DNA from: a virus
Length of the DNA: 24,910 nt
IMG/VR virus record: IMGVR_UViG_3300032560_000109
Span: 1-24,910 of that record
Strand: one strand, 5' to 3'
How positions within the stretch are numbered: the stretch's first letter is position 1; the number at the start of each line of letters is the position of its first letter. Below the pieces are notes generated by a model that was not told where the DNA came from, did not search any database, and saw only the letters and a list, made by a program, of their open reading frames with translations. Shown in pieces: positions 1 through 19,388 of the stretch. The translations under genes and the position numbers were made by a program.

Positions 1-72
1 TTCAGCGCAGTCGATGCAGGCCGTGAATTGGACGGCTCCGGAAAAGCGGTTGAGCACGTTATGCGAAATCAT
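1..72 (-). CDS. Partial leftward gene, probable pentapeptide-repeat protein N-terminus
   Basis: Only the first 24 codons lie in the window; the gene continues off the left edge. It starts at an ATG (complement of 70-72) behind a strong AGGAGG site. The start reads MISHNVLNRFSGAVQFTA followed by CIDCAE. From memory, this kind of opening (an 'N-R-(W/F)-(S/T)-G-A-V-Q-F-T-A' stretch, then an acidic Cys-containing segment) is typical of phage and alphaproteobacterial proteins whose body is a run of pentapeptide repeats (A(D/N)LXX). The repeats themselves are outside the window, so this is a family guess from the leader. It is probably co-transcribed with the small gene at 177-353, which lies upstream on the same strand. 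Confidence 0.5.
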   Translation of the reverse strand, partial: MISHNVLNRFSGAVQFTACIDCAE

Positions 73-176
73 CGGGTTGTTCCTCCTAGGCCAGGGACGG
101 CCTTGCACGCCTTCGGGCCCGCCACCGCTTGCGCGGCTCCGGGCCTTTGGGCGCTAGAGCGCGAGGTCGCCAGAGG

Positions 177-353
177 CTAATCCGTGAGCTCGGCGACCAG
201 TGCGCGGTCCGCCACGTCTTGCCGAAGAATGCGGGATTGCTGCAACTGCAGAATGAGGCGGGCCGCCCAGAGTTCGGCCTCCGCTTGTTTGCCGCAAGCC
301 GAATAGGCTAGGGCTTTCGTTAGGGCACGGATCACTTCGCTGCGATCGATCAT
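177..353 (-). CDS. Small helical protein of unknown function (58 aa)
   Basis: A 58-residue protein starting MIDRSEVIRALTKALAYSA. I chose the ATG at the complement of 351-353, not the longer upstream reading to 482, because a GGAGGAAC site sits just before it, matching the site used by the next leftward gene. The sequence predicts two or three amphipathic helices with an Ala/Leu/Gln-rich middle and an acidic end; no signal peptide, membrane segment or catalytic motif is visible. Small proteins of this shape occur in phage early regions, but I cannot assign a function. It is the first gene leftward of the divergent control region and probably heads a short leftward operon with the gene at 1-72. 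Confidence 0.65.
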   Translation of the reverse strand: MIDRSEVIRALTKALAYSACGKQAEAELWAARLILQLQQSRILRQDVADRALVAELTD

Positions 354-388
354 TGTGTGTTCCTCCGCGGCGTTGCGCCGATGCATCC

Positions 389-416
389 CTTTTACAGCAT
401 GTGCGTTGCACGTCAA
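389..416 (-). promoter_or_regulatory. Candidate leftward promoter
   Basis: On the minus strand a TTGACG hexamer (complement of 411-416) is followed after 16 bases by TAAAAG (complement of 389-394), about 36 bases before the ATG at 353. The -35 is one base from consensus but the -10 is weak. It is the best-placed candidate for the two leftward genes. It overlaps one copy (393-398) of the TACAGC motif that recurs through this region, so it may be under control of whatever binds that motif. Confidence 0.3.
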
Positions 417-434
417 GCGGTATCTACGTGCTTG

Positions 435-476
435 TTGTATGGTTGTATGGCGCTGTATGGGCGCTGTAAAACAGCG
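435..476. repeat. Tandem TGTATGG direct repeats ending in a CGCTGT palindrome
   Basis: TTGTATGG occurs at 435-442 and 443-450, CTGTATGG at 453-460, then the related CGCTGTAAA at 462-470. The last copy forms a perfect palindrome, CGCTGT (462-467) and ACAGCG (471-476), around three A residues. The 8-10-base spacing places successive copies on nearly the same face of the helix, as iterons or operator half-sites often are. Confidence 0.65.
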
Positions 477-509
477 GGGCATTTAGAGCGGTGCAACGCT
501 TGTGTTGTA

Positions 510-533
510 GGGGGTTGGCTTTAGGCCACCCCC
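510..533. repeat. GC-rich inverted repeat (hairpin)
   Basis: GGGGG (510-514) plus TGGC (516-519) pairs with GCCA (525-528) plus CCCCC (529-533) around a five-base loop, with one bulged T. There is no T-run on either strand, so it is not a clear intrinsic terminator. It sits between copies of the TGTA/TACA motif. Confidence 0.5.
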
Positions 534-566
534 AAATACAGCGGTGCGCCGATGCCGGGACCGAAA

Positions 567-585
567 CGCTGTACGCCATACAGCG
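567..585. repeat. Perfect palindrome CGCTGTA-N5-TACAGCG
   Basis: CGCTGTA (567-573) and TACAGCG (579-585) are exact inverted copies separated by five bases. The half-site is the same CGCTGTA word found at 451-457 and 462-468, and TACAGCG also occurs alone at 537-543. A repeated 7-base half-site arranged as direct and inverted copies is what a dimeric DNA-binding protein would use. Confidence 0.6.
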
Positions 586-720
586 GCCAGGCCGTACAAC
601 AGCCTCTGACCATAACCGGATAGGACGCCGTGGCGATAAGGATGGATTGGCGTAAAGGCTAAGGCTCTCGGTAACTGTAACCGTTCCAGTTGCTCGTGCG
701 CGAGTGTGACGGGCGTTGCG

Positions 721-769
721 CCGTGTCGGCCGGATAGCTGGTTATGCTCAACCTGAGCATAAGACACGG
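721..769. repeat. Nested inverted repeats forming a compound stem-loop
   Basis: Inner arms TTATGCTCA (742-750) and TGAGCATAA (754-762) are perfect 9-base inverted copies around a 3-base loop. Outer arms CCGTGTC (721-727) and GACACGG (763-769) are also exact inverted copies. Together they make a 16-base-pair compound stem with a one-sided 14-base internal loop. No T-run follows on either strand, so a terminator is unlikely; a protein-binding site, an origin stem-loop or a structured RNA is possible. Confidence 0.6.
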
Positions 770-799
770 TAACCCGTTACCGCGGTACTATGATACCGC
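767..799. repeat. Two adjoining palindromes
   Basis: CGGTAAC (767-773) and GTTACCG (776-782) are perfect inverted copies around CC. The next palindrome starts at the last base of the first: GCGGTA (782-787) and TACCGC (794-799) around six bases. Both directly follow the compound stem-loop at 721-769, giving a run of palindromes within about 80 bases. Related words GGTAAC and GTAACCG also occur at 670-683. Confidence 0.55.
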
Positions 800-914
800 T
801 ATGCACCGGCCGATACAGTGCTAGGCGTCTCGGCTTAGCGGTCCCCCTACGTATACGCGCGGCAATAGAGCCTGGCCGCTCCAGCTGGTCCGCCGCATCG
901 CCGCTAGGGAGCTC

Positions 915-937
915 CGGTTCGGGGAAACCCCGGACCG
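915..937. repeat. Stable GC-rich hairpin upstream of the A+T-rich block
   Basis: Ten bases from 915 (CGGTTCGGGG) pair with 928-937 (CCCCGGACCG) around an AAA loop, with one G-T wobble. AAAAATTTTT follows 12 bases later (949-958), which is too far for a standard intrinsic terminator. It may still stop or pause transcripts crossing this region. Confidence 0.5.
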
Positions 938-972
938 CCGGCTCTGCGAAAAATTTTTGATCCACACGCCTA

Positions 973-997
973 AAAATCGACACGGATTTTCAAAATC
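973..997. repeat. Alternating AAAATC / GATTTT elements in A+T-rich DNA
   Basis: AAAATC (973-978), GATTTT (985-990) and AAAATC (992-997) alternate in orientation; the last two form a 13-base perfect palindrome centred on a single C. This block is clearly A+T-rich against a GC-rich genome, consistent with an unwinding element or an operator upstream of the rightward operon. Confidence 0.5.
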
Positions 998-1038
998 GCT
1001 AGCATTTCCCGTAACTTAACGCCGCATCACCTACAACC

Positions 1039-1065
1039 TTGACACAACCGGCCCGCCAATACATC
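1039..1065 (+). promoter_or_regulatory. Candidate promoter of the rightward operon
   Basis: A perfect TTGACA lies at 1039-1044. The best -10-like word downstream is TACATC (1060-1065), with a short 15-base spacer, so the -10 is weak. Placement about 100 bases ahead of the first rightward gene (1163) fits the start of the long late transcript. A phage-specific or activator-dependent promoter would also fit. Confidence 0.35.
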
Positions 1066-1162
1066 CTGGCCTCGTTCCTTCCTGTGTTGCGCTTACACCT
1101 TGCTCCGGCGGACCGTCCCAAACCCGATCCGCCGGAGGACTTCCCCCCTGGAGACCCGCCGA

Positions 1163-1498
1163 ATGTCCGACCCCTCTGAGACCATGGCCGCGATCGACGT
1201 GGCGCTGGCCCCTCTGGCTCGGATGGCCGGCGACGCAGGTCCGGTGAACGCCTCCCAGCTGCTGACGGTGTCGGCCGCGGTTCGCGCCGCCTTCAACGCC
1301 CTGGTGTACGGGGTTCCCGAAGCGGCTCCGGCGGTTCAGCCTGAGCCCGAAGCGGCTCCGGCGGTTCAGCCTGAGCCCGAAGCGGCTCCGGCGGTTCAGC
1401 CTGAGCCCGAAGCGGCTCCGGCGGTTCAGCCTGAGCCCGAGGAGATTACGGAAGAAACCGTTCCCGAGGCCGATCCGGCTTCGATCTTCGACAAGTGA
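1163..1498 (+). CDS. Small repeat-bearing protein (111 aa), function unknown
   Basis: First gene of the rightward block. I start it at the ATG at 1163 (MSDPSETMAAIDVALAPLAR) because GGAG lies nine bases upstream; a longer in-frame reading from 1100 lacks a ribosome site. Residues 1-51 predict helices with Ala/Val/Leu content. Residues 52-91 are four exact copies of the decapeptide PEAAPAVQPE, followed by an acidic tail ending IFDK. The Pro/Glu/Ala repeat should be extended and disordered, like a linker or stalk. It lies close upstream of the gene at 1513. It stands roughly where a small terminase often lies, but nothing in it shows a DNA-binding or terminase-small fold. Confidence 0.7.
   Translation: MSDPSETMAAIDVALAPLARMAGDAGPVNASQLLTVSAAVRAAFNALVYGVPEAAPAVQPEPEAAPAVQPEPEAAPAVQPEPEAAPAVQPEPEEITEETVPEADPASIFDK
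1316..1435 (+). repeat. Four perfect 30-bp tandem repeats within a gene
   Basis: Four identical 30-base units (1316-1345, 1346-1375, 1376-1405, 1406-1435) begin CCCGAAGCGG and end TTCAGCCTGAG, followed by a further partial CCCGA. The unit is a multiple of three and in frame, so copy-number change would alter protein length without a frameshift. Identity at all third codon positions points to recent expansion. Confidence 0.95.
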
Positions 1499-1512
1499 TC
1501 CTGGAGAAACTC

Positions 1513-1815
1513 ATGTCCTGGCTTTCAGTCGGCCTGGCCGATATCGGCAAGTTCCTGACCAGCGCCGCGGCTTCGCCCACGGCCACCCCGGCGGCCAAGA
1601 CGGCTCTGGCGGATGTGACGACCGCCGCCGCTTCGGTTCAAGCCGCCGTGCCGGACCTGATCACCTCTGGTGTCGACGCCGGCGTGAACGCCCTGGTCAG
1701 CCAGATCCCGATCATCGGCGGCCTGGCCGAACCGGAGTTCGATGCGATCGCCAACGCCTTCCTGGCGGCGCTGTACGCCAAGTACGGTCTGACGCCCAAG
1801 ACCGTGGCCGCCTGA
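1513..1815 (+). CDS. Ala-rich small protein (100 aa), function unknown
   Basis: The ATG at 1513 is preceded by GGAG with suitable spacing; the alternative GTG at 1495 overlaps the stop of the previous gene and has no site. The protein starts MSWLSVGLADIGKFLTSAAA, is rich in Ala, Val and Thr, and has a moderately hydrophobic middle (around residues 50-75, including LVSQIPIIGGL) and a C-terminal helix ending LAALYAKYGL. There is no clear membrane helix or catalytic motif. It belongs to the string of small genes ahead of TerL. It could be a minor virion or accessory protein; I do not recognise the family. Confidence 0.65.
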   Translation: MSWLSVGLADIGKFLTSAAASPTATPAAKTALADVTTAAASVQAAVPDLITSGVDAGVNALVSQIPIIGGLAEPEFDAIANAFLAALYAKYGLTPKTVAA

Positions 1816-1826
1816 GGCTTCAGCCC

Positions 1827-1940
1827 ATGGCTAAGCATCCGAAGACCCCGGCCAAGATGGGGATGCACAAGGTGGAGCCCAAAGCCCCGCCCAAGCCTCC
1901 GTCGAAGCCGCCCGGCCATAAGGCCCAGAAGGGTAAGTGA
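1827..1940 (+). CDS. Very small Lys/Pro-rich basic protein (37 aa)
   Basis: A 37-codon frame opens with ATG at 1827, nine bases after GAGG (1814-1817), and ends with TGA at 1938-1940. The product (MAKHPKTPAKMGMHKVEP, then a Lys/Pro-rich tail) has no acidic residue except one Glu, so it is strongly basic and probably disordered, as expected of a nucleic-acid-binding peptide. It fills the gap between neighbours closely and has a plausible ribosome site. Its reality is inferred from spacing and site; small basic phage peptides are common but hard to prove from one sequence. Confidence 0.5.
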   Translation: MAKHPKTPAKMGMHKVEPKAPPKPPSKPPGHKAQKGK

Positions 1941-1942
1941 CC

Positions 1943-2161
1943 GTGGCCGCCGAGACGTTCCTGTTCCGCGGGTCCGCGAACCTGGCGGAAGCGACCTACG
2001 ATCCGGACGTCGAGAACCTGGACATCACGTTCAACGACGGGTCGTCGTACACCTACATGAACGTCCCCAACAGCGTGTACCGGGCTCTGACCTTGTCGCC
2101 GTCGGCTGGATCGTACTTCCACCGGAACATCAAGGGCCGGTTCCCCTACGAGCAGCAGTGA
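1943..2161 (+). CDS. KTSC-domain protein
   Basis: A 72-residue protein matching the KTSC domain from end to end: an N-terminal strand, the 'YDPDVENLDITFNDGS' beta hairpin, a 'Y-x-Y-x-x-V-P' turn (YTYMNVPNSVY), a short helix, then GSYFHRNIKGRFPYE at the end. The family is small and widespread in phages and bacteria, with no firmly established biochemical role; it has been linked by its fold to nucleic-acid-associated proteins. GTG at 1943 is preferred because AAGGG (1929-1933) is nine bases upstream; GTG at 1937 would overlap the previous stop but has the site too close. It lies directly before terL. Confidence 0.85.
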   Translation: MAAETFLFRGSANLAEATYDPDVENLDITFNDGSSYTYMNVPNSVYRALTLSPSAGSYFHRNIKGRFPYEQQ

Positions 2162-2162
2162 C

Positions 2163-4235
2163 GTGGCGGACCTGTCCCCCGTCCAGAAGGCCATGGTCAC
2201 GCTGGGCACGGACCGGCCACTGGCGCACCGCGTTCTCTTTGGGCACCGGCATCCGAACAAGTCCCCGGAGTTCCACCGGGAACTGATCCTCGACTGGCAC
2301 TCGTCGGACATGTCCGTGCTCGACATGGTCTTCCGTGGCGGCGCCAAGTCGACGATCGCCGAGGAAGCGATCACGATCAAAGGCTGCTACCGGGAGTTCC
2401 GCAACTGCCTCATCATCGGGGCGGACGAGGACATGGCGATCATGCGCCTGCGCGCCATCGCTCATGAGTTCGAGACCAACGAGCGGTTGATCCAGCTGTA
2501 CGGGAACCTGACCGGATCCACCTGGGCGCCCGACAGCGGCGAGATCGTGCTGTCCTCCGACGTGAAGATCCAGGCCCGCGGCAAGGGCCAGAAGCTGCGG
2601 GGGATCAAGCACCTCGATACCCGGCCGGACCTAGTCTACTTCGACGACATCGAGAGCTACGCCGACGTCGTGCGACCAGAGCTCCGCAAGAAGACCCAGG
2701 ACTGGTTCGACGGCGAAGTGCTGCCGGCCCTGGAGCCGGGGTTCATGGCCCGCATGTCGCAGACGCCGCTGCACCCCGAGGACCTGTGCTCGCACGTCAT
2801 GCGCGACCCGACCTGGAAGCGGCACAAGTTCCCGATCAAGTACCGGGACCTGGAGACCGGGGACTGGAAATCCTCGTGGCCGGAGCGGTTCCCGCTGACC
2901 GAGAAGGAGGCCTCCCACCTTCGCGGGCTGGCCTACAAGCGCGGCGAGAAGGCCAAGGTCCAGTCGATCGAGAACATCGAGACCGGCCTGTCCCGCAAGG
3001 GTCAGATCCACCTGTTCAACTGCGAATACATGTGCGAGGCCGAGAGCCCGGAGACCAAGGCGTTCAAGCGGGAGATGTTCTGGACCGAGCCCCAGGTCCG
3101 GTCCTGGCAGGCCGTCTACGCCATGTTCGATCCGGCGCGCACCGTCGGCATCAAGTCGGCCACGACGGGCATGGCGGTCTGGTCCTGGGTCAACGGCAAG
3201 CTGGTCGTGTGGGACGCCTGGGGCGAGCGCCTGATGCCCGACGAGATCATCCAGGCCCTGTTCAAGGTCCACCAGGACTACCACCCCGTCTGGATCGGCT
3301 TCGAGGAAGACGGCCTGAACCAGTGGGCCCTGCAGCCGATCCGCCAGGAGATGGTCAAGCGCGGAGAGGCGCTGCCGCTGCGCGCCCTCAAGGCGCCGAC
3401 GGGTAAGAACGACTTCATCCGCGGGCTGCAGCCGTTCTTTCATGGCCGGGAAGTGCGCTTCGCCAAGCCGATGCCCGAGCTTGAGCGCCAGCTGTTGGGC
3501 TTCCCCTCCGGCGAGATCGACGTTCCGAACGCCCTGGCCTACGCCCTGAAGATGCGGCCCGGCGCCCCGCTGTACGCCGACTTCGGGGCCAAGCACGCCA
3601 CGGACAGCCTGGAGCCGACTACCAGCCGGCCGATCGTCGTGTGCCTCAACGCGACCCGGAGCCTCGTCACCGCCGTGGCCATCCAGGTCTTCGACGGCTG
3701 CGCCCGGGTGTACCGGGACTACGTCCGGGAGGGAGAGCCGTCCGCGGTTCTGCCCGGCTTGGTCTCGGACCTGCAGGCCGACCTGGGGACGAACCTGCAG
3801 TTCACGGCCGGACCGATCCACTGGGACCGGCACAACAACGTCGGGCTGATCGCGGTGGCCGGCCGAATCCCCCGGCGCGTCAACCCAGGACTGCCGGCCG
3901 ACCAGGGCCGGGCCCGGATCGCGGCCATGCTGCAGCGGGACAAGAGCGGATTCCCGATGCTGATGGTGTCGGACAAGGCCACCTGGACGATGAACGCCTT
4001 CGCCGGGGGCTACAGCCGCGTCCTGCTGAAGCAGGGCCAGTTGGCCGACTACGCCGAGGAAGGCCCGTACCGGGTGCTGATGGAAGGCCTGGAGAGCTAC
4101 CTGGCCCTGACGGAACTCGGTTCGACAGAAGGGTACGGATCGTCTACCTTGAACGCGGAGACGGCCGAGGGCCGACCGTACCGATCCATGCTGGGCGGCG
4201 CCCGCACGGTGACGGCGACCAAAGACAACTGGTGA
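2163..4235 (+). CDS. terL: Terminase large subunit (TerL), 690 aa with C-terminal extension
   Basis: DNA-packaging motor with ATPase and nuclease domains. Residues 58-64 (RGGAKST) form the Walker A loop; 157-164 (LVYFDDIE) form Walker B with the catalytic Glu. The RNase H-like nuclease follows: FDPART with D323 as first metal ligand, GFEEDG with E381/E382 as second, and EIDVPN with D453 as third. Many TerL proteins would end near here; this one continues for over 200 residues. Residues about 488-600 again read strand-loop-strand (VVCLNATRS, AVAIQVFDG, ARVYRDYV), like the start of a second RNase H-like fold, but with N496 where the metal-binding Asp should be. It starts with GTG at 2163, one base after the previous stop, without a strong site, so coupling is likely. 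Confidence 0.93.
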   Translation: MADLSPVQKAMVTLGTDRPLAHRVLFGHRHPNKSPEFHRELILDWHSSDMSVLDMVFRGGAKSTIAEEAITIKGCYREFRNCLIIGADEDMAIMRLRAIAHEFETNERLIQLYGNLTGSTWAPDSGEIVLSSDVKIQARGKGQKLRGIKHLDTRPDLVYFDDIESYADVVRPELRKKTQDWFDGEVLPALEPGFMARMSQTPLHPEDLCSHVMRDPTWKRHKFPIKYRDLETGDWKSSWPERFPLTEKEASHLRGLAYKRGEKAKVQSIENIETGLSRKGQIHLFNCEYMCEAESPETKAFKREMFWTEPQVRSWQAVYAMFDPARTVGIKSATTGMAVWSWVNGKLVVWDAWGERLMPDEIIQALFKVHQDYHPVWIGFEEDGLNQWALQPIRQEMVKRGEALPLRALKAPTGKNDFIRGLQPFFHGREVRFAKPMPELERQLLGFPSGEIDVPNALAYALKMRPGAPLYADFGAKHATDSLEPTTSRPIVVCLNATRSLVTAVAIQVFDGCARVYRDYVREGEPSAVLPGLVSDLQADLGTNLQFTAGPIHWDRHNNVGLIAVAGRIPRRVNPGLPADQGRARIAAMLQRDKSGFPMLMVSDKATWTMNAFAGGYSRVLLKQGQLADYAEEGPYRVLMEGLESYLALTELGSTEGYGSSTLNAETAEGRPYRSMLGGARTVTATKDNW

Positions 4236-4242
4236 GGCGACC

Positions 4243-6354
4243 TTGGCGGAAAAGGATCTGAAGCGGGACGACGAGATCCCCCTGGGCGAAGGCGAAGACA
4301 GCCTGAAGGCCAAGGTCCTCGGCCTGTTCGACGACGTCGAGAAGGGGTTCACCGATCAGCGCGGCCGGTCCGACGACTGCCAGGACAACTGGGACCTCTA
4401 CAACTGCAAGCTGGGCGAGAAGCAGTTCTACGTCGGCAACTCCAAGATCTTCCTGCCGTTCGTCCGGGACGCCGTCGACGCCCGGGTCACGCGCTTCACC
4501 AACCAGATCTTCCCGGCGTCCAACCGCTGCGTCGAAGTCCTGACCGGCGACAAGGACCACCAGTGGGCGCAGCAGGCCCTGATCGAGGCCTACGTCCGCC
4601 GGGCCAAGCTGCGGACCCGCGTGATCCCCGCACTGATCCGGAACGGGGACATCGAAGGCCAGTACAGCCTCGCGGTCTCCTGGCGAAAGCGCACGCGGCA
4701 CGCGGTCTACCGGGTGAAGAAGCAGCCCACCACCGACGGCATCGAGAATCCCGCGGCGGAGGAAGTCGAGGACATCGAGGAGCAGGAGGTCGTCGACGCC
4801 GGACCCACCGTCGAGGTCCTGGCGGACTCGGATCTGCTGATCCTGCCGGTCACGGTCGACGGCGTCGAGGAAGCCCTGGACTGCGGCGGGTCGGTGACGA
4901 TCCTGCGCCGGTGGACCAAGGGCAAGATCAAGAAGATGATCGCCGACGGGGAAATCGACGAGGACAAGGGCGACGAGCTGTGCGAGGCGCTGTCCTCCGA
5001 GCAGAAGGACCCGAAGGTCGATCGGGCCAAGGAACTCGCCGACGTCGCGGGCATCAAGGCCGGCGGCAAGAAAGCCGTGGTCTATGAGACCTGGCACTAC
5101 CTGAAGGTCGACGACAAGGTGATGCTCTGCCGGATCTACTTCGCCGGGGGAGACTGTATCCTGAGCGTCCGCCGGAACCCGTTCTGGAACGACCGCTGCC
5201 CCGTCATCACCGCCCCTGTGGAGAAGGTCGCCAACGTCGCCAAGGGCGTCGCGCCGGTCATGGCCGTCGGGGACCTGCAGATCTTCGCCAACGACACGAT
5301 CAACGAAGGCGCCGACACCGCGCACTTCTCGGCCATGCCGATCGTGATGACGGATCCGCTGAAGAACCCGCGCACCGACTCCATGGTTCTCGGCCTGGGC
5401 GCCGTGTGGGATACCAGCCCGACGGACACGAAGATCGTCGAGTTCCCCGAACTGTGGCGGTCCGCCATGGAGCGGGCCGGCACGATCAAGGAGCAGATCT
5501 TCCAGACCCTGGGCGTCAACCCCGCCATGGTCCCGGGTCAGACCGGCGGCCCGGGGAAGAAGCGCAGTCAGGCGGAGATCGCCAACGAGCAGCAGGTCGA
5601 TCTGCTGACGACCGCCGACGCCGTGACCAACATCAGCGACAGCATACTCACGCCCCTGGTGCAATGGTTCGTCGAACTCGATCACCAGTTCCGGGACGAC
5701 GTGACCACGGTCCAGGTCTACGGCGAGATGGGGATCGAGGCCACGCAGGAGGAAGTCGAGCCCCTGCTGCTGAACAAGGCCTACGAGTACCGGTGGTTCG
5801 GCGTCGAGAGCGCGCGGAACGCCGCGCAGATGCAGCAGCAGATTGCCTGGCTGAACGTCGCCAAGGAGATTCCCCCGGAAATGTATCCGGACTACGAGCT
5901 CGACTTGACGCCCATGATGATCCAGGGGACCGAGAACGTGTTCGGTCCGCGCATCGCGCCGTCGATCTTCAAGCGGAAGAATGTCCTCACGGTCGATCCG
6001 GCTCTGGAGAATGAGGCGATGAAGTTCGGGTACATGATGAATGTGCATCCGGCCGACGACGACGCCCATCACATCCAGGAGCACCTGATCGCCGCCCAGG
6101 CCGACAACGATCCGCACGGGACCTTCCGCGACCACATCCAGAAGCACGTCGCTCAGCTGCAGCAGAAAGCCGCGATGCAGGAAGGCATGGTTCCTTCCGG
6201 ATCGCAGCGTCCGCAACCCGGCGGTAGCAAAGGAGCGCCGAAGCCGGGATCGCAGCCGGCCATGCCGCGCCAGATCAAAGGTCCCGCGGGGTCGATTCAT
6301 CCAGACTCTATGGCCAAAGCAGGAGCCCCGACGATGCCCCGTAAGATGGGCTAG
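4243..6354 (+). CDS. Portal protein
   Basis: A 703-residue protein immediately after TerL, in the usual place and at a usual length for large podovirus portals. It would form the dodecameric ring at one head vertex through which DNA is pumped. The N-terminal part (DNWDLYNCKLGEKQFYVGNS, then IFLPFVRDAVDARVTRF) is typical of this portal type. A region with stem/wing character follows, and then a Gln-rich helical part near residues 515-545. The tail is Pro/Gly/Lys-rich and probably disordered. The start is TTG at 4243, chosen because TGAGG lies just upstream and the N-terminus is acidic and plausible. I rely on position and overall pattern, since portals lack a short diagnostic motif. Confidence 0.85.
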   Translation: MAEKDLKRDDEIPLGEGEDSLKAKVLGLFDDVEKGFTDQRGRSDDCQDNWDLYNCKLGEKQFYVGNSKIFLPFVRDAVDARVTRFTNQIFPASNRCVEVLTGDKDHQWAQQALIEAYVRRAKLRTRVIPALIRNGDIEGQYSLAVSWRKRTRHAVYRVKKQPTTDGIENPAAEEVEDIEEQEVVDAGPTVEVLADSDLLILPVTVDGVEEALDCGGSVTILRRWTKGKIKKMIADGEIDEDKGDELCEALSSEQKDPKVDRAKELADVAGIKAGGKKAVVYETWHYLKVDDKVMLCRIYFAGGDCILSVRRNPFWNDRCPVITAPVEKVANVAKGVAPVMAVGDLQIFANDTINEGADTAHFSAMPIVMTDPLKNPRTDSMVLGLGAVWDTSPTDTKIVEFPELWRSAMERAGTIKEQIFQTLGVNPAMVPGQTGGPGKKRSQAEIANEQQVDLLTTADAVTNISDSILTPLVQWFVELDHQFRDDVTTVQVYGEMGIEATQEEVEPLLLNKAYEYRWFGVESARNAAQMQQQIAWLNVAKEIPPEMYPDYELDLTPMMIQGTENVFGPRIAPSIFKRKNVLTVDPALENEAMKFGYMMNVHPADDDAHHIQEHLIAAQADNDPHGTFRDHIQKHVAQLQQKAAMQEGMVPSGSQRPQPGGSKGAPKPGSQPAMPRQIKGPAGSIHPDSMAKAGAPTMPRKMG

Positions 6355-7219: not shown

Positions 7220-8575
7220 ATGGCCACCAATCAGTCCAGTCAGTTCCAAGCTGACATCGAAGGCTATATCGCCGACAAGACCCTCCCGCTGGCTCGACGC
7301 CAGCTGGTGGCTTTCCAATTCGCCGACAAGTCCGAAGGCATTCCGAAGGGCCGAGGCGTCAGCTACACCGCCACGCGCTACCAGCGCCTGCCGGTTCCCT
7401 TCGCTCCGCTGTCGGAAGGTGTTCCTCCGGTCGGCGAGACCATGACGATCCAGCAAGTCACCGCCACCGCCCTCCAGTGGGGCGATAAGGTGACGATCAC
7501 GGACGTCGCCGAGATGACGGTCAAGCATCCGCTGTTCAAGAAGGCGACCGAACTGGTGGCCCTGCAACTGTCGGAAACGCTTGAGCGCAACACCATGCTG
7601 GCGCTTATGGGCGGAACCCAGGTCAACTACGTCAACTCGCGCGGATCGCGCGGCGCCCTGCAGTCTGGTGATGTGCTGGACGGCCAGACGGTCATCCGCA
7701 CCGACATGGCTCTGGAAGTCCTGGGCGCCCCGCGCTTCATGGGCGACGAGATGACCGACACCAAGATCGACGCCGGCAAGCCCTCCAAGGCTTCGGACAA
7801 TCCGCGCGGGATGCCGCACTACGTGGCGATCTGCCACCATGCGGTGGTCGCGGACTTCCGCCAGCAGTCCGATGTGAAGCTGGCCTGGACCTACTCGGAC
7901 CTGAACCGCCTCTACAACTTCGAAGCCGGCGAGTGGTCGGGCATTCGTTTCTGCAAGACCAACATGGTTCCGTCCTTCACGGGCGTCGCGCAGATCAATG
8001 GCACGGCCGGCACCGCCGGTAGCCTGGCGGGCTCGCCGACCAACTACTACGTGATCGTCACCGCGTCCGACTCGCAGAACCAATACGAGAGCCGGATCTA
8101 TGCCGTGTCGAACGCCGTCTCCGTGACCGGCCCCAACGGCTCTATCTCGGTGACGCTGCCCTCCCTGGTCGGGTTCACCTTCAACGTCTACGTCGGCACC
8201 ACGACCTCGCCAAGCCAGTTGGGCCTGTCGGCCTCCGGCCCCACGGTCGGCCCCATGGCCGGCCAAGCCGTGCAGCTGGCGGGAAACCAGACTGTGGTCA
8301 TCACCGGCCTCGGTCTGGCTCAAGTGCCGCCCGCCTTCCCGGGAAACGCGGCCGGCCTGACCGTGTATCCGACCTTCATCATCGGTCGCGGAGCCTACGC
8401 CCAGGTCGAACTCGACAACGTCAAGTTCACCTACCTGAAGGACGCCGACAAGTCCGATCCGCTCAACCAGCTGCGGATCGTCGGGTGGAAAGCGTTCTAC
8501 GGTACGCTGCTCTCCAACGTCCAGTTCATGGCCCGCATCGAAAGCGTGTCCGCCTACACGACCTCTTTCACCTAA
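7220..8575 (+). CDS. Major capsid protein, N4-gp56 family, with inserted Ig-like domain
   Basis: A 451-residue HK97-fold-type capsid protein. The N-terminal two thirds carry features I associate with the N4-gp56 family: an early 'A-D-K-T-L-P-L-A-R-R' helix, a GETMTIQQVTATALQWGDKV strand region, then HPLFKKATELVALQLSETLE and a helix ending NTMLALMGG. Residues 248-254 (NMVPSFT) would normally lead almost directly into VYPTFIIGRGAY (from 382). Here about 120 residues intervene, with alternating strands (YYVIVTASDS, YESRIYAVSNAVSV, TFNVYVGTT) that look like an Ig-like or fibronectin-like fold, probably displayed on the capsid surface. The ribosome site lies in a hairpin. A further hairpin follows the gene. 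Confidence 0.9.
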   Translation: MATNQSSQFQADIEGYIADKTLPLARRQLVAFQFADKSEGIPKGRGVSYTATRYQRLPVPFAPLSEGVPPVGETMTIQQVTATALQWGDKVTITDVAEMTVKHPLFKKATELVALQLSETLERNTMLALMGGTQVNYVNSRGSRGALQSGDVLDGQTVIRTDMALEVLGAPRFMGDEMTDTKIDAGKPSKASDNPRGMPHYVAICHHAVVADFRQQSDVKLAWTYSDLNRLYNFEAGEWSGIRFCKTNMVPSFTGVAQINGTAGTAGSLAGSPTNYYVIVTASDSQNQYESRIYAVSNAVSVTGPNGSISVTLPSLVGFTFNVYVGTTTSPSQLGLSASGPTVGPMAGQAVQLAGNQTVVITGLGLAQVPPAFPGNAAGLTVYPTFIIGRGAYAQVELDNVKFTYLKDADKSDPLNQLRIVGWKAFYGTLLSNVQFMARIESVSAYTTSFT

Positions 8576-10431: not shown

Positions 10432-11304
10432 ATGGCTCTTACCGCGGCGCAGCTATGCACAAATGCGGCCCAGGTCGCAAAGTGCCCGGGCTATACGAGT
10501 CAGGCCGGACAAGGTCTGAACCAGATACTCGGTGATCTGTGCCGCGCGTGGGACTTCGAACTCGCCGCCAAGACGACGTACTTTAACTTCAACCCGGGGC
10601 TGTCGGCGCTGGTCGGTAACAGCATTTACGGCTCCGGGCCCTACCCGCTTCCCACGGACTTCCTCCGCATCAAGGACGACAAGTCCGCCTTCTGGACCCT
10701 TCCGGGAACCGGTGTGGTCTATCCGCTGATCCCTTGCGATCTGTCGGAATTCGACATGATGGTGCAGCAGGCCGGAACGCAGTCCTACCCGTACATCATC
10801 GCCACGGACATGAGCCTCGGGGATGAGACGACGCAAGGTGATAATACGCCGGTGTGCTATGTCTACGCGCCTCCGAGCGGCGCCTATCCGGTGACGATCC
10901 GGTATTTCGCTCAGATGCCTGACATCTACATGCCGGAAACTTCGGCGACGATCCCTTGGTTCCCACACCAGGGGTATCTGCACATGAAGCTGTCGGCCTA
11001 TCTGATGGGCTTCACCGATGACGTGCGCCAAGGTGAGTGGGACAAGGCGGCTAACGAGCTGCTACGTGAGTACCTGATGATGAAGGACAATCGTAGCAAC
11101 CGGGCTTCGACCGTGAAACTAGACCGCCGGCGGTTTGGCCGGGCGTACACGACGCTCCCGAACACGAAGACCGTCGGTTGGGTGGTAGCACTTGCGCTGT
11201 TGGGTGGTAGCGTGCTTAGCTCCTTGTACAACAAGGAGGTGCAGTATGCTCACGGACGAGCAGAGGCTTCGGCGCAACGAATATATGCGGGAGTGGAAGC
11301 GTAA
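10432..11304 (+). CDS. Head-tail adaptor (connector) protein with abnormal C-terminus
   Basis: A 290-residue protein one base after the previous gene. It resembles the podovirus adaptor that docks below the portal: helical start (ALTAAQLCTNAAQVAKCPGY), a beta-rich core with LPTDFLRIKDD, then a helical C-terminal part (HMKLSAYLMGF; ANELLREYLMMKD). The family's usual end, as I recall it, is a LDRRRFG...TLPNTKTVGW motif; here that is residues 229-250. Instead of stopping at W250 the frame runs 40 residues more through the 22-bp repeat, the SD hairpin and the first 59 bases of the HNH gene. The extension (VVALALLGGSVLSSLY...) is hydrophobic then polar and looks like an accident of the endonuclease insertion. 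Confidence 0.78.
   Translation: MALTAAQLCTNAAQVAKCPGYTSQAGQGLNQILGDLCRAWDFELAAKTTYFNFNPGLSALVGNSIYGSGPYPLPTDFLRIKDDKSAFWTLPGTGVVYPLIPCDLSEFDMMVQQAGTQSYPYIIATDMSLGDETTQGDNTPVCYVYAPPSGAYPVTIRYFAQMPDIYMPETSATIPWFPHQGYLHMKLSAYLMGFTDDVRQGEWDKAANELLREYLMMKDNRSNRASTVKLDRRRFGRAYTTLPNTKTVGWVVALALLGGSVLSSLYNKEVQYAHGRAEASAQRIYAGVEA
11178..11211 (+). repeat. Direct repeat TTGGGTGGTAGC at the adaptor/HNH junction
   Basis: TTGGGTGGTAGC occurs at 11178-11189 and again at 11200-11211, a 22-base period, exactly where the adaptor's conserved end meets the HNH insertion. Two turns of helix separate the copies. It may be a junction scar or a binding site for a regulator. Confidence 0.8.
11220..11238 (+). promoter_or_regulatory. 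Hairpin sequestering the HNH gene ribosome site
   Basis: CTCCTTGT (11220-11227) pairs perfectly with ACAAGGAG (11231-11238) around ACA. The ribosome site AAGGAGG (11233-11239) of the HNH gene at 11246 lies almost wholly in the 3' arm. On a read-through transcript the gene should be poorly translated unless the stem is opened, for example by ribosomes finishing the overlapping adaptor frame. Confidence 0.7.
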
Positions 11305-11776
11305 GAACCGCGAGAAGGTCAACGCGATAAATCGCTCGGTCAAGGCCAAGAACCCTGAAAAATACCGGGGGATCAATCGGCTATCCATGGCCAAGGCGCG
11401 GTCCGAAGACCCCGATCGGTTCCGGGATTTGGCCGACCGGTACCGAGACAAGAACGCACCGAAGTACCTATTAGACCACGCCCGATGGCGGGCTAAAAAG
11501 CTGGGGGTCGCATTCTCATTAACCGAGCAGGACGTAAAAATTCCGGAATTTTGCCCGGTGCTCGGTATCAGGCTAGAGTGGAGCCGAGGTCGTCGAGCTT
11601 CAGCAAACAGTAGCTCGCCTTCGTTAGACCGGGTCGAAGGTGCTAAAGGGTATGTGCAAGGGAACGTGGTCGTGATCTCTAACAGGGCTAACTTCCTCCG
11701 GAACAATGCGTCTGCAGAAGAACTTCGCCGTGTTGCGGAGTACGCGGGCAAAGTGGAAGGCGGATGGAGGCCCTGA
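11246..11776 (+). CDS. HNH-type homing endonuclease, free-standing
   Basis: A 176-residue protein from ATG 11246, six bases after AAGGAGG. The N-terminal 75 residues are very basic and helical with repeated 'R-x-K-N-P-E-K/D' units, probably DNA-binding. The C-terminal part matches a common phage HNH homing-endonuclease type: DHARWRAKKLGVAFSL, IPEFCPVLGIRLEW, SPSLDRVEGAKGYVQGN (126-140), VVVISNRANFLR, then AEELRR. It lies between the adaptor and nozzle genes, overlapping the adaptor frame by 59 bases and the next gene by a TGATG junction. Its A+T content is visibly higher than its neighbours, consistent with invasion. Such enzymes cut an allele lacking the gene and so spread; the target is probably the adaptor/nozzle junction (inferred). 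Confidence 0.88.
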   Translation: MLTDEQRLRRNEYMREWKRKNREKVNAINRSVKAKNPEKYRGINRLSMAKARSEDPDRFRDLADRYRDKNAPKYLLDHARWRAKKLGVAFSLTEQDVKIPEFCPVLGIRLEWSRGRRASANSSSPSLDRVEGAKGYVQGNVVVISNRANFLRNNASAEELRRVAEYAGKVEGGWRP

Positions 11777-13614: not shown

Positions 13615-14352
13615 GTGCGGATCAGAAAATTAACGGCCCTACTGGCTTTCATGGCCGGCCTGGGGCTAGCCTCTTCGGCTCCGGCGCAGATCGTCGGGGT
13701 TCTTCCCTACACCCTGACCAACGGCACGACAGCCGACGCTAATCAGGTTCAAGGGAATCTGCAGTACATCGTCAACCAGGTGAACGCTAACGTCGCCACG
13801 GCGGTCACCGCGGCGATCAGCGCGGTCCTCCCGGTGGGGACCATCGTTGAATGGAGTGGATCGATCGTGTCCATTCCCACCGGGTGGCACATCTGCGACG
13901 GAACGCACGGTACGCCGAACCTGGAAGATTCGTTCGTCGTCGGCGCCGGTAATTCTTACGCGGTGGGTTCGACCGGAGGTGCGACGTCGAACACGCCGAC
14001 GATCACGGTGGCGGGTCATACGCTGACCTTAGCGGAGATCCCCAGCCACAACCACGGTGTGACTGATCCCGGGCACGGACACGGTGTGACCGATCCGGGA
14101 CACAGCCATACCTACCAACTAGCGCAGACGGGTCCGACTGCCGTTATCGGAGGGGGCAGCAGCCCTTTGGGCTCCACGACGGGATCGAGCACCGGAACGT
14201 CGACTACCGGAATCTCCATCCAAAGCTCGACCACAGGCATCACTGTTCAAAACAACGGGGGCGGGGGTTCCCACACGCACACGGCCAGTTCATCGGCCGT
14301 GCCGACGTTGCCGCCCTACTACGCCCTGGCTTACATCATGAAGACATCCTAG
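13615..14352 (+). CDS. Tail-collar-domain fibre protein with signal peptide
   Basis: A 245-residue protein with GTG start at 13615 behind GGAGG. Residues 1-24 (MRIRKLTALLAFMAGLGLAS, then SAPA) form a textbook Sec signal peptide: basic start, hydrophobic core, and A-P-A before Q25. Residues about 72-120 match the phage tail-collar domain (LPVGTIVEWSGSIVSIPTGW, HICDGTHGTPNLEDSFVVGA). A histidine-rich DPGHGHG/DPGHSH stretch (about residues 142-163) follows, with SHTH near the end, like the HxH metal sites of fibre tips; the C-terminal PPYYALAYIMKTS is the usual end of collar proteins. It should be a trimeric receptor-binding or fibre protein. A signal peptide on such a protein is unexpected. Confidence 0.85.
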   Translation: MRIRKLTALLAFMAGLGLASSAPAQIVGVLPYTLTNGTTADANQVQGNLQYIVNQVNANVATAVTAAISAVLPVGTIVEWSGSIVSIPTGWHICDGTHGTPNLEDSFVVGAGNSYAVGSTGGATSNTPTITVAGHTLTLAEIPSHNHGVTDPGHGHGVTDPGHSHTYQLAQTGPTAVIGGGSSPLGSTTGSSTGTSTTGISIQSSTTGITVQNNGGGGSHTHTASSSAVPTLPPYYALAYIMKTS

Positions 14353-14358
14353 GCGTTT

Positions 14359-14387
14359 TTGACGCGAGCCGACCAAGGCTGTAGTCT
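14359..14387 (+). promoter_or_regulatory. Candidate promoter before the second signal-peptide protein
   Basis: TTGACG (14359-14364) is followed 17 bases later by TAGTCT (14382-14387). The gap of 61 bases here is one of the longer ones in the operon. The surrounding GGCTGTAGTCTCG resembles the CTACAGTCTCG in the gap before the scaffold gene. The -10 is weak; the case rests on recurrence and placement. Confidence 0.3.
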
Positions 14388-14413
14388 CGCGGAACAATTC
14401 TCTGGAGAAGGCC

Positions 14414-14902
14414 ATGCGCCAACGAATTCTAGCGGCACTGCTTCTGCTTTGCGCGCTATCCGTCGCCCCGGCGGTATCGTGGGCGCAGACCGGAACTCCG
14501 GCACAGACCGTGGCGACGTGCGGCACCCCGAACAATGCTCCCGTGGTCGGCGGTTATTACAGCCTGACCATGAACCCCGCGTCCCAGCTTTGCATCGCGG
14601 GAAATATTACCGCTAATCCGAGCGTGATCGACGCGACGTCGACGGATGCCTCCGGCACCGTGACCGCAGGAGGCACCTACCAATTGGTGATCGCGTCCAA
14701 TGCCTCTCGAAAAGGCTGCTTGATCCAAAACCCGGTGTCCGCCAGCGAAACGCTCAACGTCCGGATCGGCGCTACCACCGTCTACTCCCTGGCCGCCGGA
14801 GCAGCGTTGTCCTGCTCGGCTGGCGGCGGTGTGATCGTCTCGGATAACGTCTACGTCACCGGCACGACGACCGGACATGCATTTTCGGCGAACTATCAAT
14901 GA
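14414..14902 (+). CDS. Secreted beta-rich protein with signal peptide (162 aa)
   Basis: The ATG at 14414 follows GGAG. Residues 1-24 ([20 protein letters not shown], then VSWA) form a Sec signal peptide with S-W-A before Q25; there is no lipobox, so no lipoprotein. The mature part is Thr/Ala/Ser/Val-rich with four Cys residues. It has a beta-sandwich-like rhythm ([51 protein letters not shown]). The unit '[19 protein letters not shown]' is one I associate with small phage and prophage structural or adhesin modules. It overlaps the next gene by ATGA. Function unknown; an exported or virion-surface adhesin is the likeliest reading. Confidence 0.75.
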
Positions 14903-16182
14903 AGAAATTCCTAGTCACCTTCGCGGCGCTCCTGGCTTTTCCGGCGTTCGCCCAGACCATCACGCCCTCCGGCACGGTGACGAGTGTCGCGGTAACGGCC
15001 CCGGCGTTTTTCACCGTGACGGGCAATCCTATCACGACCAGCGGGACCGTCGCGCTTTCGATCACGTCACCGGCGGCGGCTAATTTTCTCGCCTCGCCGA
15101 CCGGCTCAAGCGGCCAACCGACATTCCGCGCCATCGTTAGTGGGGACTTGCCGGTCATTAATCTGAACACCTCGGCGGCGGGCGGCGTTCAGGGGAATTT
15201 GCCGGTCGGCAATTTGGCGAGCGGAACCAATGCTAGCGCGTCAACATTTTGGCGCGGCGATGGTTCCTGGCAAACGCCTGCGGGCGGCGGCAATGTTTAC
15301 AACGTCGCGACACCCACGAATTTGCAAATCGCCCAATGGACCGGCGCGACGACAATTCAGGGCCTCGCCACGACCGGGACCGGAAATGCGGTCCTCGCCA
15401 CATCGCCGACGCTGACCACGCCTAATTTGGGCACGCCTTCCGCCGCTGTCCTGACCAGCGCGACGGGCCTTCCTCTGTCGACGGGCGTAACCGGGACGCT
15501 TCCGCTCGCCAACGGCGGGACCGGAATTACGACAGCGTCGCCGATGGTCACTCAGCAAATTTTCCTGACGGGTTCGGGTACCTATACGAAGCCCGCCGGA
15601 GTAATTTGGATCAGGGTCCGCATGGTCGGCGGCGGCGGCGGCGGCGGCGGTGGCGGGACAGGCGCGGCAGGAAACGGTGTGACGGGCGGCGTATCGACGT
15701 TTGGTTCTGCTTTTCTGACGGCTAATGGCGGCCTTTTTGGACAGGCAAATGCCGCGCCGGGTGGCGGCGGCGGGACCGCTAGCATAACGGCTGGCGCTAC
15801 CGGATTGGCCCTAACGGGCGGTGGCGGTGGCGCTAATGTTTCCCAAGGCATCATAAACGACGTCGTTTCGGGCGGTATGGGCGGGAATTCGGCCTTGGGT
15901 GGCGGGGCTCCCAGCGTCGTTTACAGTATGGCGGGCACGGCGGGTGCTTCTAATACCGGCGGCGGCGGTGCCGGCGGCGGTTCTGGAAACAACGTCGGCG
16001 CTTATTCCGGTTCGGGCGGCGGCGCTGGCGGATTTGTTGACGCCATTATTACGGCTCCCTCCGCGACCTATGCCTATAGCGTCGGCGCGGGAGGGACGGC
16101 GGGTACGGCGGGCACTGGCGGCTATGCTGGCGGCGCTGGCGGCTCCGGCGTGATCATTGTCGAAGAACATTATTGGTATTGA
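14899..16182 (+). CDS. Glycine-rich tail fibre/adhesin with signal peptide (427 aa)
   Basis: It starts at ATG 14899 in an ATGA overlap. Residues 1-18 ([18 protein letters not shown]) are a signal peptide with A-F-A before Q19. Residues about 20-215 carry phage-fibre repeat modules ([71 protein letters not shown]). Residues about 222-427 form a glycine-rich adhesin domain ([20 protein letters not shown], a run of ten Gly, many later GGGG and GGAGG blocks, ending IIVEEHYWY). Such domains occur at phage fibre tips, where polyglycine stretches can pack as type II helices. Codon choice becomes more A+T-rich (AAT, TTG, ATT) from about 15060, suggesting a recently acquired host-range module. Confidence 0.85.
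15628..15657 (+). repeat. In-frame GGC trinucleotide run
   Basis: Seven consecutive GGC codons (15628-15648), then GGT GGC GGG, encode ten Gly at the start of the adhesin domain. Pure trinucleotide runs can gain or lose units by slippage without a frameshift. Confidence 0.85.
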
Positions 16183-16932: not shown

Positions 16933-17394
16933 ATGCGTCCGGTTCCTCCCCAAGCCCTCGCTCTGGTTAAGTCCAGCGAGGGCTTTCGCGCGTCTTGCTA
17001 TTCCGATACGGGCGGTCTGCCGACCATCGGCTACGGGCACAAGTTGCGTCCGGGCGATCCGCTCCTGGTTTCGACGATCTCTGAGGCCGCCGCCGAGGAG
17101 TTGGCCGAGCAGGACCTGGCGGCGGCCGGCGCTCAACTGACCTCCGTTCTGGGCGACGCGCAGATCACGGAACTCTCGGACGGACAGTGGTCCGCGCTCC
17201 TGGACTTCACCTTCAACGAAGGCATCGGCCAGTTCGAGGCGTCGACCCTGTGCGCCAAGATCAAGACCGGACAACTGGCATCCGCGTCGATCGAATTTAA
17301 CCGGTGGGTCTACGGCAAGGTCAACGGCGTCGAGACGGTTCTGTCCGACTTGGTCGCGCGCCGAGCCTCCGAAACGGCGTTGTGGAATTCATGA
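16933..17394 (+). CDS. Endolysin, GH24 lysozyme (T4/P22 type)
   Basis: A 153-residue muramidase that cleaves the glycan chain of peptidoglycan at lysis. The catalytic triad of the family is in place: E16 (KSSEGFR), D25 (CYSDTGG) and T31 (LPTIGYGH), with the family's 9- and 15-residue spacings from the Glu. The ALLDFTFNEGIGQFEASTL segment and the RW...G...GL(V)xRR-like end (EFNRWVYGKVNGVETVLSDL, then VARRASE) complete the fold; length is normal. There is no signal peptide or signal-anchor, so it depends on a holin, possibly the gene at 16524. It overlaps the next gene by ATGA. Confidence 0.93.
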   Translation: MRPVPPQALALVKSSEGFRASCYSDTGGLPTIGYGHKLRPGDPLLVSTISEAAAEELAEQDLAAAGAQLTSVLGDAQITELSDGQWSALLDFTFNEGIGQFEASTLCAKIKTGQLASASIEFNRWVYGKVNGVETVLSDLVARRASETALWNS

Positions 17395-18377: not shown

Positions 18378-19388
18378 ATGGGCGGCAGTACGCAGCAAGC
18401 ACCGCAGGCTTACCAACCGGCTAACCAGGCCGGAGCGGATCAGAGTTATCAAGCGGGCGCGAGCCAGCTTTCGTCCGCCGGGCAGGGCTTGGCTTCGACG
18501 GTGACGCCGCAGCTGGCGTCTATCGCGTCCAACGTCCAGAGCAACCCCTACTACGGCCAGGCCCTGACCGGCGCCCAAGGCGCGGCCAACGTGGCGACGT
18601 CGCAAGTGGCGCCGCAGCAGTTGTCCTCGGCCGCCAGTTTGCAGAATCTGTCCCAAGGCGCTTCGGCGTTGGCGCCTTATCTGTCGCAAGTGCCCGCCAG
18701 CTACACCGGGATTACATCCAACCCGGAACTCATGGCCGGGTTGCAGACGCTGCAGACCGCCTACGATCCGCAGAGCACGCTGTACAATCAGCAGTACCAG
18801 CAGCAGCAGGACCAGCAGAACGCGATCAACGCCATGAGCGGGGTGGCAGGAACGCCATATGGCGCAGGCGTCGCCGGACAGGCCTCGCAGAACTTCAACA
18901 CCAACTGGCAGAACCAGCAGCTGCAGCGGCAAGTGACTGGCCTAGGAGCGTATGACAGCGCGGCGACCACGGCGGCGAATAACATCGCGGCGCTGACCGG
19001 GGCTTCCGCGAACAACTACAGCACCCTGGCGAACACGGCGGGGAGCGCGGCGACCACGTCGTCGAACCTGGGCACGGCCGGCCTGAACACCATGGCGACC
19101 GCCGCGCAGCTTCCGTACGATCTGTATCTACAGCAGCAGCAAGCGGGGTTGTCGGCTCTGGGCCAGCAGATCCAAGGGACGAACAGCGCCAATGCCTTGA
19201 CGCAGCAAGGTGTGGCCGATCAGGGCGCCTATCTGAATATCGGTCAGGGCGCGACGGGGCTCAACCAGAGCGCAGCCCAAATCAACAACCAAGCCGCGCA
19301 AGCGTCTTCGGCGGGCCTGGGAAGTCTGTTCGGGGACATCACCGGCATGTTCCATTTCGGAAACCCACTAGCCCCCTCTGCGACGTAG
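18378..19388 (+). CDS. Probable internal virion / ejection protein, Gln/Ala-rich (336 aa)
   Basis: The ATG at 18378 lies two bases after the GNAT stop. The product is extremely rich in Gln, Ala, Ser, Asn and Gly, with few charges (MGGSTQQAPQAYQPANQAGA; STLYNQQYQQQQDQQNAINA). It reads as long low-complexity helices around a GVAGTPYGAGVAGQASQNFN unit. This composition and the 'S-G-x-(A/P)-x-G-(G/T)-x-x-(A/G)' style core occur in podovirus proteins encoded upstream of large ejection proteins. It ends LGSLFGDITGMFHFGNPLAP. I infer an ejected or tail-inner protein from composition and place; it has no enzymatic motif. Confidence 0.65.
   Translation: MGGSTQQAPQAYQPANQAGADQSYQAGASQLSSAGQGLASTVTPQLASIASNVQSNPYYGQALTGAQGAANVATSQVAPQQLSSAASLQNLSQGASALAPYLSQVPASYTGITSNPELMAGLQTLQTAYDPQSTLYNQQYQQQQDQQNAINAMSGVAGTPYGAGVAGQASQNFNTNWQNQQLQRQVTGLGAYDSAATTAANNIAALTGASANNYSTLANTAGSAATTSSNLGTAGLNTMATAAQLPYDLYLQQQQAGLSALGQQIQGTNSANALTQQGVADQGAYLNIGQGATGLNQSAAQINNQAAQASSAGLGSLFGDITGMFHFGNPLAPSAT

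Follow-up and report, generated by a model that had tools for sequence, protein, structure and literature searches.

Introduction

In phage phi29, the switch between early and late transcription is operated by the proteins p4 and p6. The available part of the published account places the control of its early and late promoters (A2c/A2b and A3) in one intergenic region, where inverted repeats with A/T tracts bind p4 (PMC3100819), and the genome is given as 19 kb (PMC4974454; available part of the text). Repeated protein-binding sites of other kinds are described in the accessible portions of further reports. In phage 186, the stretch between pR and pL contains several direct repeats at intervals of about one helical turn, to which the protein Apl binds cooperatively (PMC7498355). 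The stoperators of Cluster A mycobacteriophages are short repeated sites that differ in sequence between subclusters (PMC6550527) and are spread across the phage genome (PMC9283540), and the origins of PLEs are exchangeable RepA-iteron modules with three semi-palindromic iterons of ~30 bp (PMC8263062). Here, we analyze a repeat-rich divergent region of a phage sequence from IMG/VR. In a limited literature search by titles and the opening parts of abstracts, no paper describing this region was found; its kind is known, and within that search this member is undescribed.

Results

The window, that is, the whole stretch of DNA analyzed, comprises positions 1 to 24,910 (24,910 bases) of IMGVR_UViG_3300032560_000109; it is the whole IMG/VR record, for which no end repeats are noted, and is probably a fragment of a phage genome. 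The genes for the large terminase (2163-4235, phrog_38), portal (4243-6354), major capsid (7220-8575), and endolysin (16933-17394) are all rightward, the first 353 bases consist of leftward ORFs, and the early genes of this phage lie off the contig. The divergent region (351-1162) extends from the first leftward start codon to the first plausible rightward one and is bordered by a minus-strand ORF of 58 aa (177-353, with its ATG at 353-351) and a plus-strand ORF of 111 aa (1163-1498). Within the latter, a 30-bp in-frame repeat is present in four near-identical copies (1321-1440); another contig, L002/L019, begins at this repeat, and its overlap upstream of the terminase is otherwise identical to the window. 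Two ORFs among the structural genes (11192-11776 and 23305-23805) have an HNH-type look by eye.

Among 50,697 phage records, neither the divergent region nor window positions 1-5000 had a nucleotide match, the portal protein had no tblastn match, and the terminase and capsid had distant matches only, every one below 60% identity. Relatives were drawn from IMG/VR, and three more came from genome contigs; one of these three, L191, belongs to a metagenome-assembled Acetobacteraceae bin. Some records represent the same contig (L269 is L161; L262, L194, and G011 are L172; L001 is the window). The capsids of L020, L036, L057, and L191 are 81-89% identical to that of the window, which is nearest to L036, L057, and L191 (88-89%), and L161 and L172 are more distant (terminase identity of 44-45%). 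The genomes of the relatives are about 41-46 kb in size, and several assemble with end overlaps of 71-127 bases.

An earlier note on this DNA had described dense repeats at 421-800, and every feature that it named was found in its place. The TGTATGG repeats (436, 444, and 454, with an inverted copy at 576) and the CGCTGTA words merge into one word, GYTGTA(T), in 10 copies, at 392, 434, 442, 452, 463, 504, 536, 568, 578, and 594 (6 on the plus and 4 on the minus strand), often with T as the next base. Four direct words on the plus strand (434-469; GTTGTAT at 434, GTTGTAT at 442, GCTGTAT at 452, and GCTGTAA at 463) are spaced 8, 10, and 11 bp apart. They are accompanied by GTTGTAG on the plus strand (504-510), inverted GCTGTAT (536-542, minus strand), a perfect palindrome of two words, CGCTGTACGCCATACAGCG (567-585), inverted GTTGTAC (594-600, minus strand), and a GCTGTAA on the minus strand (392-398) that is left of the range first reported and overlaps the -10 box of a candidate leftward promoter considered below. 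A CGCTGT/ACAGCG palindrome, CGCTGTAAAACAGCG, is located at 462-476.

The repeats of the divergent region are real and beyond chance. CGCTGTA is present nine times in the 24,910 bp, with five of the nine within 451-585 (shuffles: mean 1.67, largest 5), TGTTGTA is present five times, with three within 433-601 (shuffle mean 0.52), and a 7-mer with five copies per 140 bp was found in none of 100 dinucleotide shuffles of the window. Counts of 7-mer pairs were also compared with shuffles at 23 loci (3 of 26 having been left out for too little sequence); although at most 1 of 200 shuffles attained the observed value in 18 of the 23, we set this statistic aside because coding pieces often score equally high (5 of 29 in the window). 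The statement of the earlier note that no gene explains the structure agrees with our searches, in which the minus-strand ORFs at 483-767 and 777-983 had no homologue in 186 related records. The gammaproteobacterial form of the LexA (SOS) box is CTGT-N8-ACAG. Since this form has no match in the window, where the palindromes have spacers of N7 and N3, a LexA box reading was dropped.

A candidate leftward promoter, P_L, with a sigma70-like TTGACG-N16-TAAAAG, is located on the minus strand at 389-416. The corresponding pattern, TTGACR-N16-TARAAR, has a single match in the window and no match in 100 shuffles, and among 290 loci it was found in the window, the contigs of L161, L172, and L259, and once in L243 only; as the pattern was derived by eye from these phages, its informative part is the near absence elsewhere. 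In the window, L172, and L259, this promoter is placed immediately downstream of the array, and the closest upstream word is ~16-24 bp from the -35 box. In L161, a 170-aa ORF (963-1475), which had no relative among the 20 other sequences searched, lies between array and promoter.

The 58-aa ORF has no PHROG match, and its homologues among the 186 related records were confined to L172 and L161 (tblastn, 53-55% identity). When an alignment of the three homologues was run against IMG/VR, 88 loci were obtained, of which 80 were kept. Because most of these 80 loci have other words or none upstream, the 58-aa ORF is probably not the determinant of word specificity. The iterated words of other phages with this ORF, located immediately upstream of the ORF homologue (upstream of position 3001), include AGAACCC (12 copies, L255), CAGACAC (5, L260), GTTCCCA (5, L266), CATGATC (5, L249), and AGCACCT (5, L226).

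In a scan of 183 records (window included, some overlapping) for [GT][CT]TGTA within 200 bp, L161 had 10 words, the window 9, and L172 9, and the fourth-best record had 5; the clusters of L161 and L172 are located in the divergent region. A cluster scan of the 80 loci with the 58-aa ORF was led by L259 (11 words), L269, and L262, and the conserved element described below was found among these 80 at E <0.01 in L161, L172, and L259 only. All three have this array in their divergent region, and no other sampled member of the family has a homologue of the 58-aa ORF. Of the 16 GCTGTA copies in the complete contig G011, 8 fall within 18,724-18,880 (~157 bp). The eight loose word matches of L243 are, by eye, a tandem coding repeat and were rejected as an array, and an exact-pattern scan of IMG/VR for CGCTGTATGGGCGCTGTA gave no match. 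L161 also has inverted pairs of TGTTGTA at 1502-1590, and in one pair, ATGTTGTAGGTG...CACCTACAACAT, the arms measure 12 bp or more (by eye).

The earlier note had taken the recurring word as pointing to a specific DNA-binding protein. The word is indeed non-random, clustered only here, and repeated in arrays of 9-11 copies in three distant relatives; from this pattern, we infer the binding itself. Absence of the repeats from close relatives with a conserved gene order had been named as an outcome against that view, and on this point the result is divided: L020, L036, L057, and L191, in which gene order is conserved, have no comparable cluster of GYTGTA(T), but three of the four have another iterated word. 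In their divergent regions, L036 and L057 have GCGGGTA seven times and L191 has GTAGGTA four times, and L020 has its own palindromes and weak repeats only. Taking as a cluster any 7-mer that occurs four or more times in 200 bp without being tandem or in frame, we counted 13 clusters in 26 kb of divergent regions versus 31 in 326 kb elsewhere at the 23 loci with enough sequence, which is five times denser; the 13 clusters are spread over 13 of the 23 loci, and the other 10 have none. Further words are GCTGTCA (L128), GTGATAA (L162), GACTGAC (L130), and TCTATCA (L068). The GCTGTCA/TGACAGC array of L128 (2050-2420) is near to but distinct from GYTGTAT and occupies the same divergent position.

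Where the earlier note had claimed a single array, we found at least two site types and a separate conserved element. Besides the words, there are an imperfect GC hairpin, GGGGG...CCCCC (GGGGGTTGGCTTTAGGCCACCCCC, 510-533), a compound stem at 721-769, CCGTGTC...GACACGG, with the palindrome TTATGCTCAACCTGAGCATAA (742-762) inside it, and a tandem pair of GGTA-N6-TACC palindromes at 768-797 (768-781 and 784-797), first reported as adjoining palindromes at 767-799. Both arms of the 742-762 palindrome are DnaA-box-like 9-mers with one mismatch each. The exact 14-mer GGTACTATGATACC is also present in L165, about as far from the conserved element as in the window, and its flanks there differ yet are again complementary; the palindromes at 742-797 are lineage-specific.

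Perfect inverted repeats within 353-1162 number 5, against a shuffle mean of 1.96 (8 of 200 shuffles attain 5), and their summed arm length is 35, against 12.5 (1 of 200 shuffles). The strand at 700-960 folds better than its shuffles (z of -2.74, DNA parameters). Across loci, perfect palindromes (arms of 7 or more, loops of 6 or fewer) are densest in the 200 bp that precede the element on the left, where there are 16, or ~3/kb, versus 0.66/kb elsewhere; by whole-contig counts, the divergent region is not the peak in every genome. GGTA-N6-TACC was found five times within 350 bp left of the element versus once elsewhere, a post hoc count, as the motif had been noticed in the window, L165, L124, and L020 beforehand, and one site is left (L130) once the window, L165, and L124 are removed. 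A wider count gave 5 in 125 kb upstream of terminases versus 12 in 807 kb, and the enrichment left of the element is only suggestive. Two structures were observed in other phages: L181 has GTGTGGTACCAGARTACC three times, 32 bp apart, at 4220-4297, 0.4-0.46 kb upstream of its terminase, and L020 has, by eye, a strong intrinsic-terminator-like hairpin with a T run at 2137-2174, rightward and with no ORF before it, which could be the end of a small RNA.

The conserved element is a noncoding stretch of ~90 bp on the plus strand (911-997; GGTTCGGGGAAA...GCGAAAAATTTTTGA...CCTAAAAATC...TTTTCAAA) outside the coordinates first reported (421-800). A first profile made of window positions 800-1175 and the matching stretches of L161, L036, and L057 led to eleven further contigs at E <0.01, all as plus-strand matches: L191 (6e-11), L165, L115, L117, L124, L152, L172, L123, L147, L132, and L130 (0.008), with L041, L061, and L054 counted once as the same contigs as L117, L124, and L152. 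In 170 records, a refined model matched 26 at E <0.01, 16 of which had been used to build it, and on reversed sequences it had no match at E up to 1. The conserved parts are TTCGGGGAAA or CTTGGGAAA, a GC-rich spacer, GAAAAATTTTTGA, an A-tract, and a T-tract. In every record with a known terminase position, the element precedes the large terminase by ~1.25 to 4 kb. Because RNAalifold predicts no pair in the element (16 sequences), we take it to be a DNA element. To its right, TTGACA (1039-1044, plus strand) is a candidate -35 box of a rightward promoter, P_R, which is without a good -10 box. In 20 of 27 loci, the element has a TTGAC no more than 130 bp to its right, compared with 3.5 to 20% of the 130-bp pieces of loci. 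With 62% AT, positions 945-1004 rank with the most AT-rich 60-bp segments of the contig.

The two flanks of the divergent region differ in their relatives. On the left, window positions 288-355 match L172 (75%) and L161 (71%), and positions 103-182 match L191 (80%). The first rightward protein has matches in L191, L020, and L057 and none in L161, L172, and L259 (L036 was left out of this comparison). Given the different closest relatives of the left and right flanks, the array looks like part of an exchangeable cassette; judging from these short matches, array and 58-aa ORF appear to sit cassette-like between flanks of other descent.

Selected leftward ORFs of G011 were examined. Its leftward block includes PolA, Prim-Pol/AAA, an Enc34-type SSB, an SNF2-like helicase, an exonuclease, a protein that matches both RusA-like resolvase and processivity-factor families, a Holliday-junction resolvase, and a small protein with MarR/LexA-like and sigma-r4-like matches. 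G011 has two early DNA-binding candidates (14090-14479 and 15006-15464, minus strand), one recognized by Pfam/PHROG match and one by eye. Searches of 17 other genomes and of IMG/VR gave no clear relative for them, the genomes yielding a single weak match (E of 0.04).

Discussion

Since the replication genes of G011 run leftward, we interpret the region as one of early/late control, with the array serving as a multi-copy operator at the leftward promoter, and we give a probability of roughly 60% to such a region in which a DNA-binding protein governs this promoter from multiple sites. Promoter-like boxes face both ways from the divergent region, and 351-1162 would be the start point of both the leftward and the rightward genes. 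Judged by gene content, the leftward genes would be an early replication module (this from one full relative), and the rightward ones, namely small ORFs, terminase, portal, and capsid, the late genes. The GYTGTA(T) array (392-600) would serve as a multi-copy site for one protein, most likely encoded by the phage, which would act on P_L as a repressor or an activator, and the direct copies 8-11 bp apart together with the inverted pairs are suggestive of proteins bound cooperatively side by side. A second protein, acting as a dimer, may have its sites in the palindromes at 742-797, and rightward transcription may have its control site and start in the conserved element with the TTGACA box. Against the operator reading, no binding protein was found, the early genes of the window being off the contig and the two G011 candidates having no clear relative in the genomes searched; P_R is without a good -10 box, the ORF of L161 splits the array from P_L, so that adjacency is not universal, and the closest relatives (L020, L036, L057, and L191) are without the word, as 10 of 23 loci are without any cluster.

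The main rival is an iteron-like replication origin, in which GYTGTAT would be the iterons of a phage initiator, the element an A/T-rich unwinding site, and word differences a reflection of initiator specificity. The helical-turn spacing of the direct words (8-11 bp) would suit iterons, a change of word between relatives has a parallel in the initiator/iteron modules of PLEs (PMC8263062, accessible portion), and the AT-rich 60 bp at 945-1004 and the DnaA-like 9-mers, with three of the seven one-mismatch copies of the window inside 351-1162, fit an origin equally well. However, none of these three 9-mers is exact and two are arms of a single palindrome, the words abut the promoter in three of four phages, and no initiator gene is linked to them (the early genes being off the contig here); the A/T-rich stretch is ~350 bp away. 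The earlier note had proposed cumulative GC skew as a check, and the outcome is inconsistent: a clear sign change across the region is seen in at most three of eight full or near-full relatives, and five of the eight have none. Overall, we regard an origin as rather improbable, though a serious competitor.

That the words are sites of a host transcription factor or nucleoid protein, with their differences reflecting different hosts, is unlikely in our view: the words do vary by lineage and no phage protein is tied to them, but L036, L057, and L191, nearest by capsid, differ in word, distant L161, L172, and L259 share it, and the word travels with the left flank. We consider a structured RNA or terminator region, with the inverted repeats as RNA hairpins, very improbable. 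The folding of 700-960 (z of -2.74) and the position of the L020 hairpin inside the divergent region would agree with it; on the other side, positions 1-3000 have no Rfam match at the gathering score (one sub-threshold match, 2249-2357), a scan of 1-2000 gave 370-384 as the sole terminator-like site, and no consensus structure emerged for the element (16 sequences). Late control, origin, or packaging are candidate functions of the element, and its deep conservation and steady position, 1.25-4 kb ahead of the large terminase, are in keeping with recognition by terminase at a cos/pac site. Such a site would account for the element and not for the word array, we noticed no contig that ends at the element, and the 71-127-base end overlaps of several relatives also speak against it, making packaging a most improbable explanation.

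Returning to the operator reading, we tentatively suggest that this large family of uncultivated phages keeps a fixed frame (a divergent region with the element and the TTGACA box) in which early-side cassettes of operator words, each with a DNA word of its own, are swapped, thereby exchanging regulatory specificity; as part of this frame, the ~90-bp late-side element may belong to no described family, which we put forward equally cautiously. If the words are operators, the region is a probable control switch of a phage family that has no nucleotide match among the 50,697 records for the stretches searched, and the array could be used as DNA bait for the family's master regulator. A deeply conserved element beside fast-changing words would also be a natural series on the exchange of phage regulatory specificity.

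Among the known systems, a likeness to phi29 would lie in the control of early and late promoters from one region, which for the window we infer from sequence. The phi29 p4 consensus, CTTTTT-15-AAAATG, has no match in the window with up to two mismatches allowed, and a p4-controlled switch of the phi29 type was rejected as its defining site is not present. The phi29 genome is also smaller (19 kb versus about 41-46 kb), and the GYTGTAT array finds no counterpart in the available part of the phi29 account (PMC3100819). Compared with the three iterons of PLEs, there are ten 7-bp words beside a promoter here, and no RepA was found. As in operators of the lambda and 186 kind, many copies of one site lie in the divergent region and are not clustered elsewhere, and the direct repeats about one helical turn apart are shared with 186. 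Apl, in contrast, has att as a further binding site and acts as a recombination-directionality factor, according to the accessible portion of that report (PMC7498355); the words of the window are in both orientations, and no Apl relative was identified here. An exchange of word specificity by cassette might, by analogy, resemble the exchange of immunity in temperate phages, a comparison as tentative as the cassette model to which it belongs. Like the stoperators of Cluster A, the site sequence varies within one phage group, whereas the window has its array as one cluster within the divergent region.
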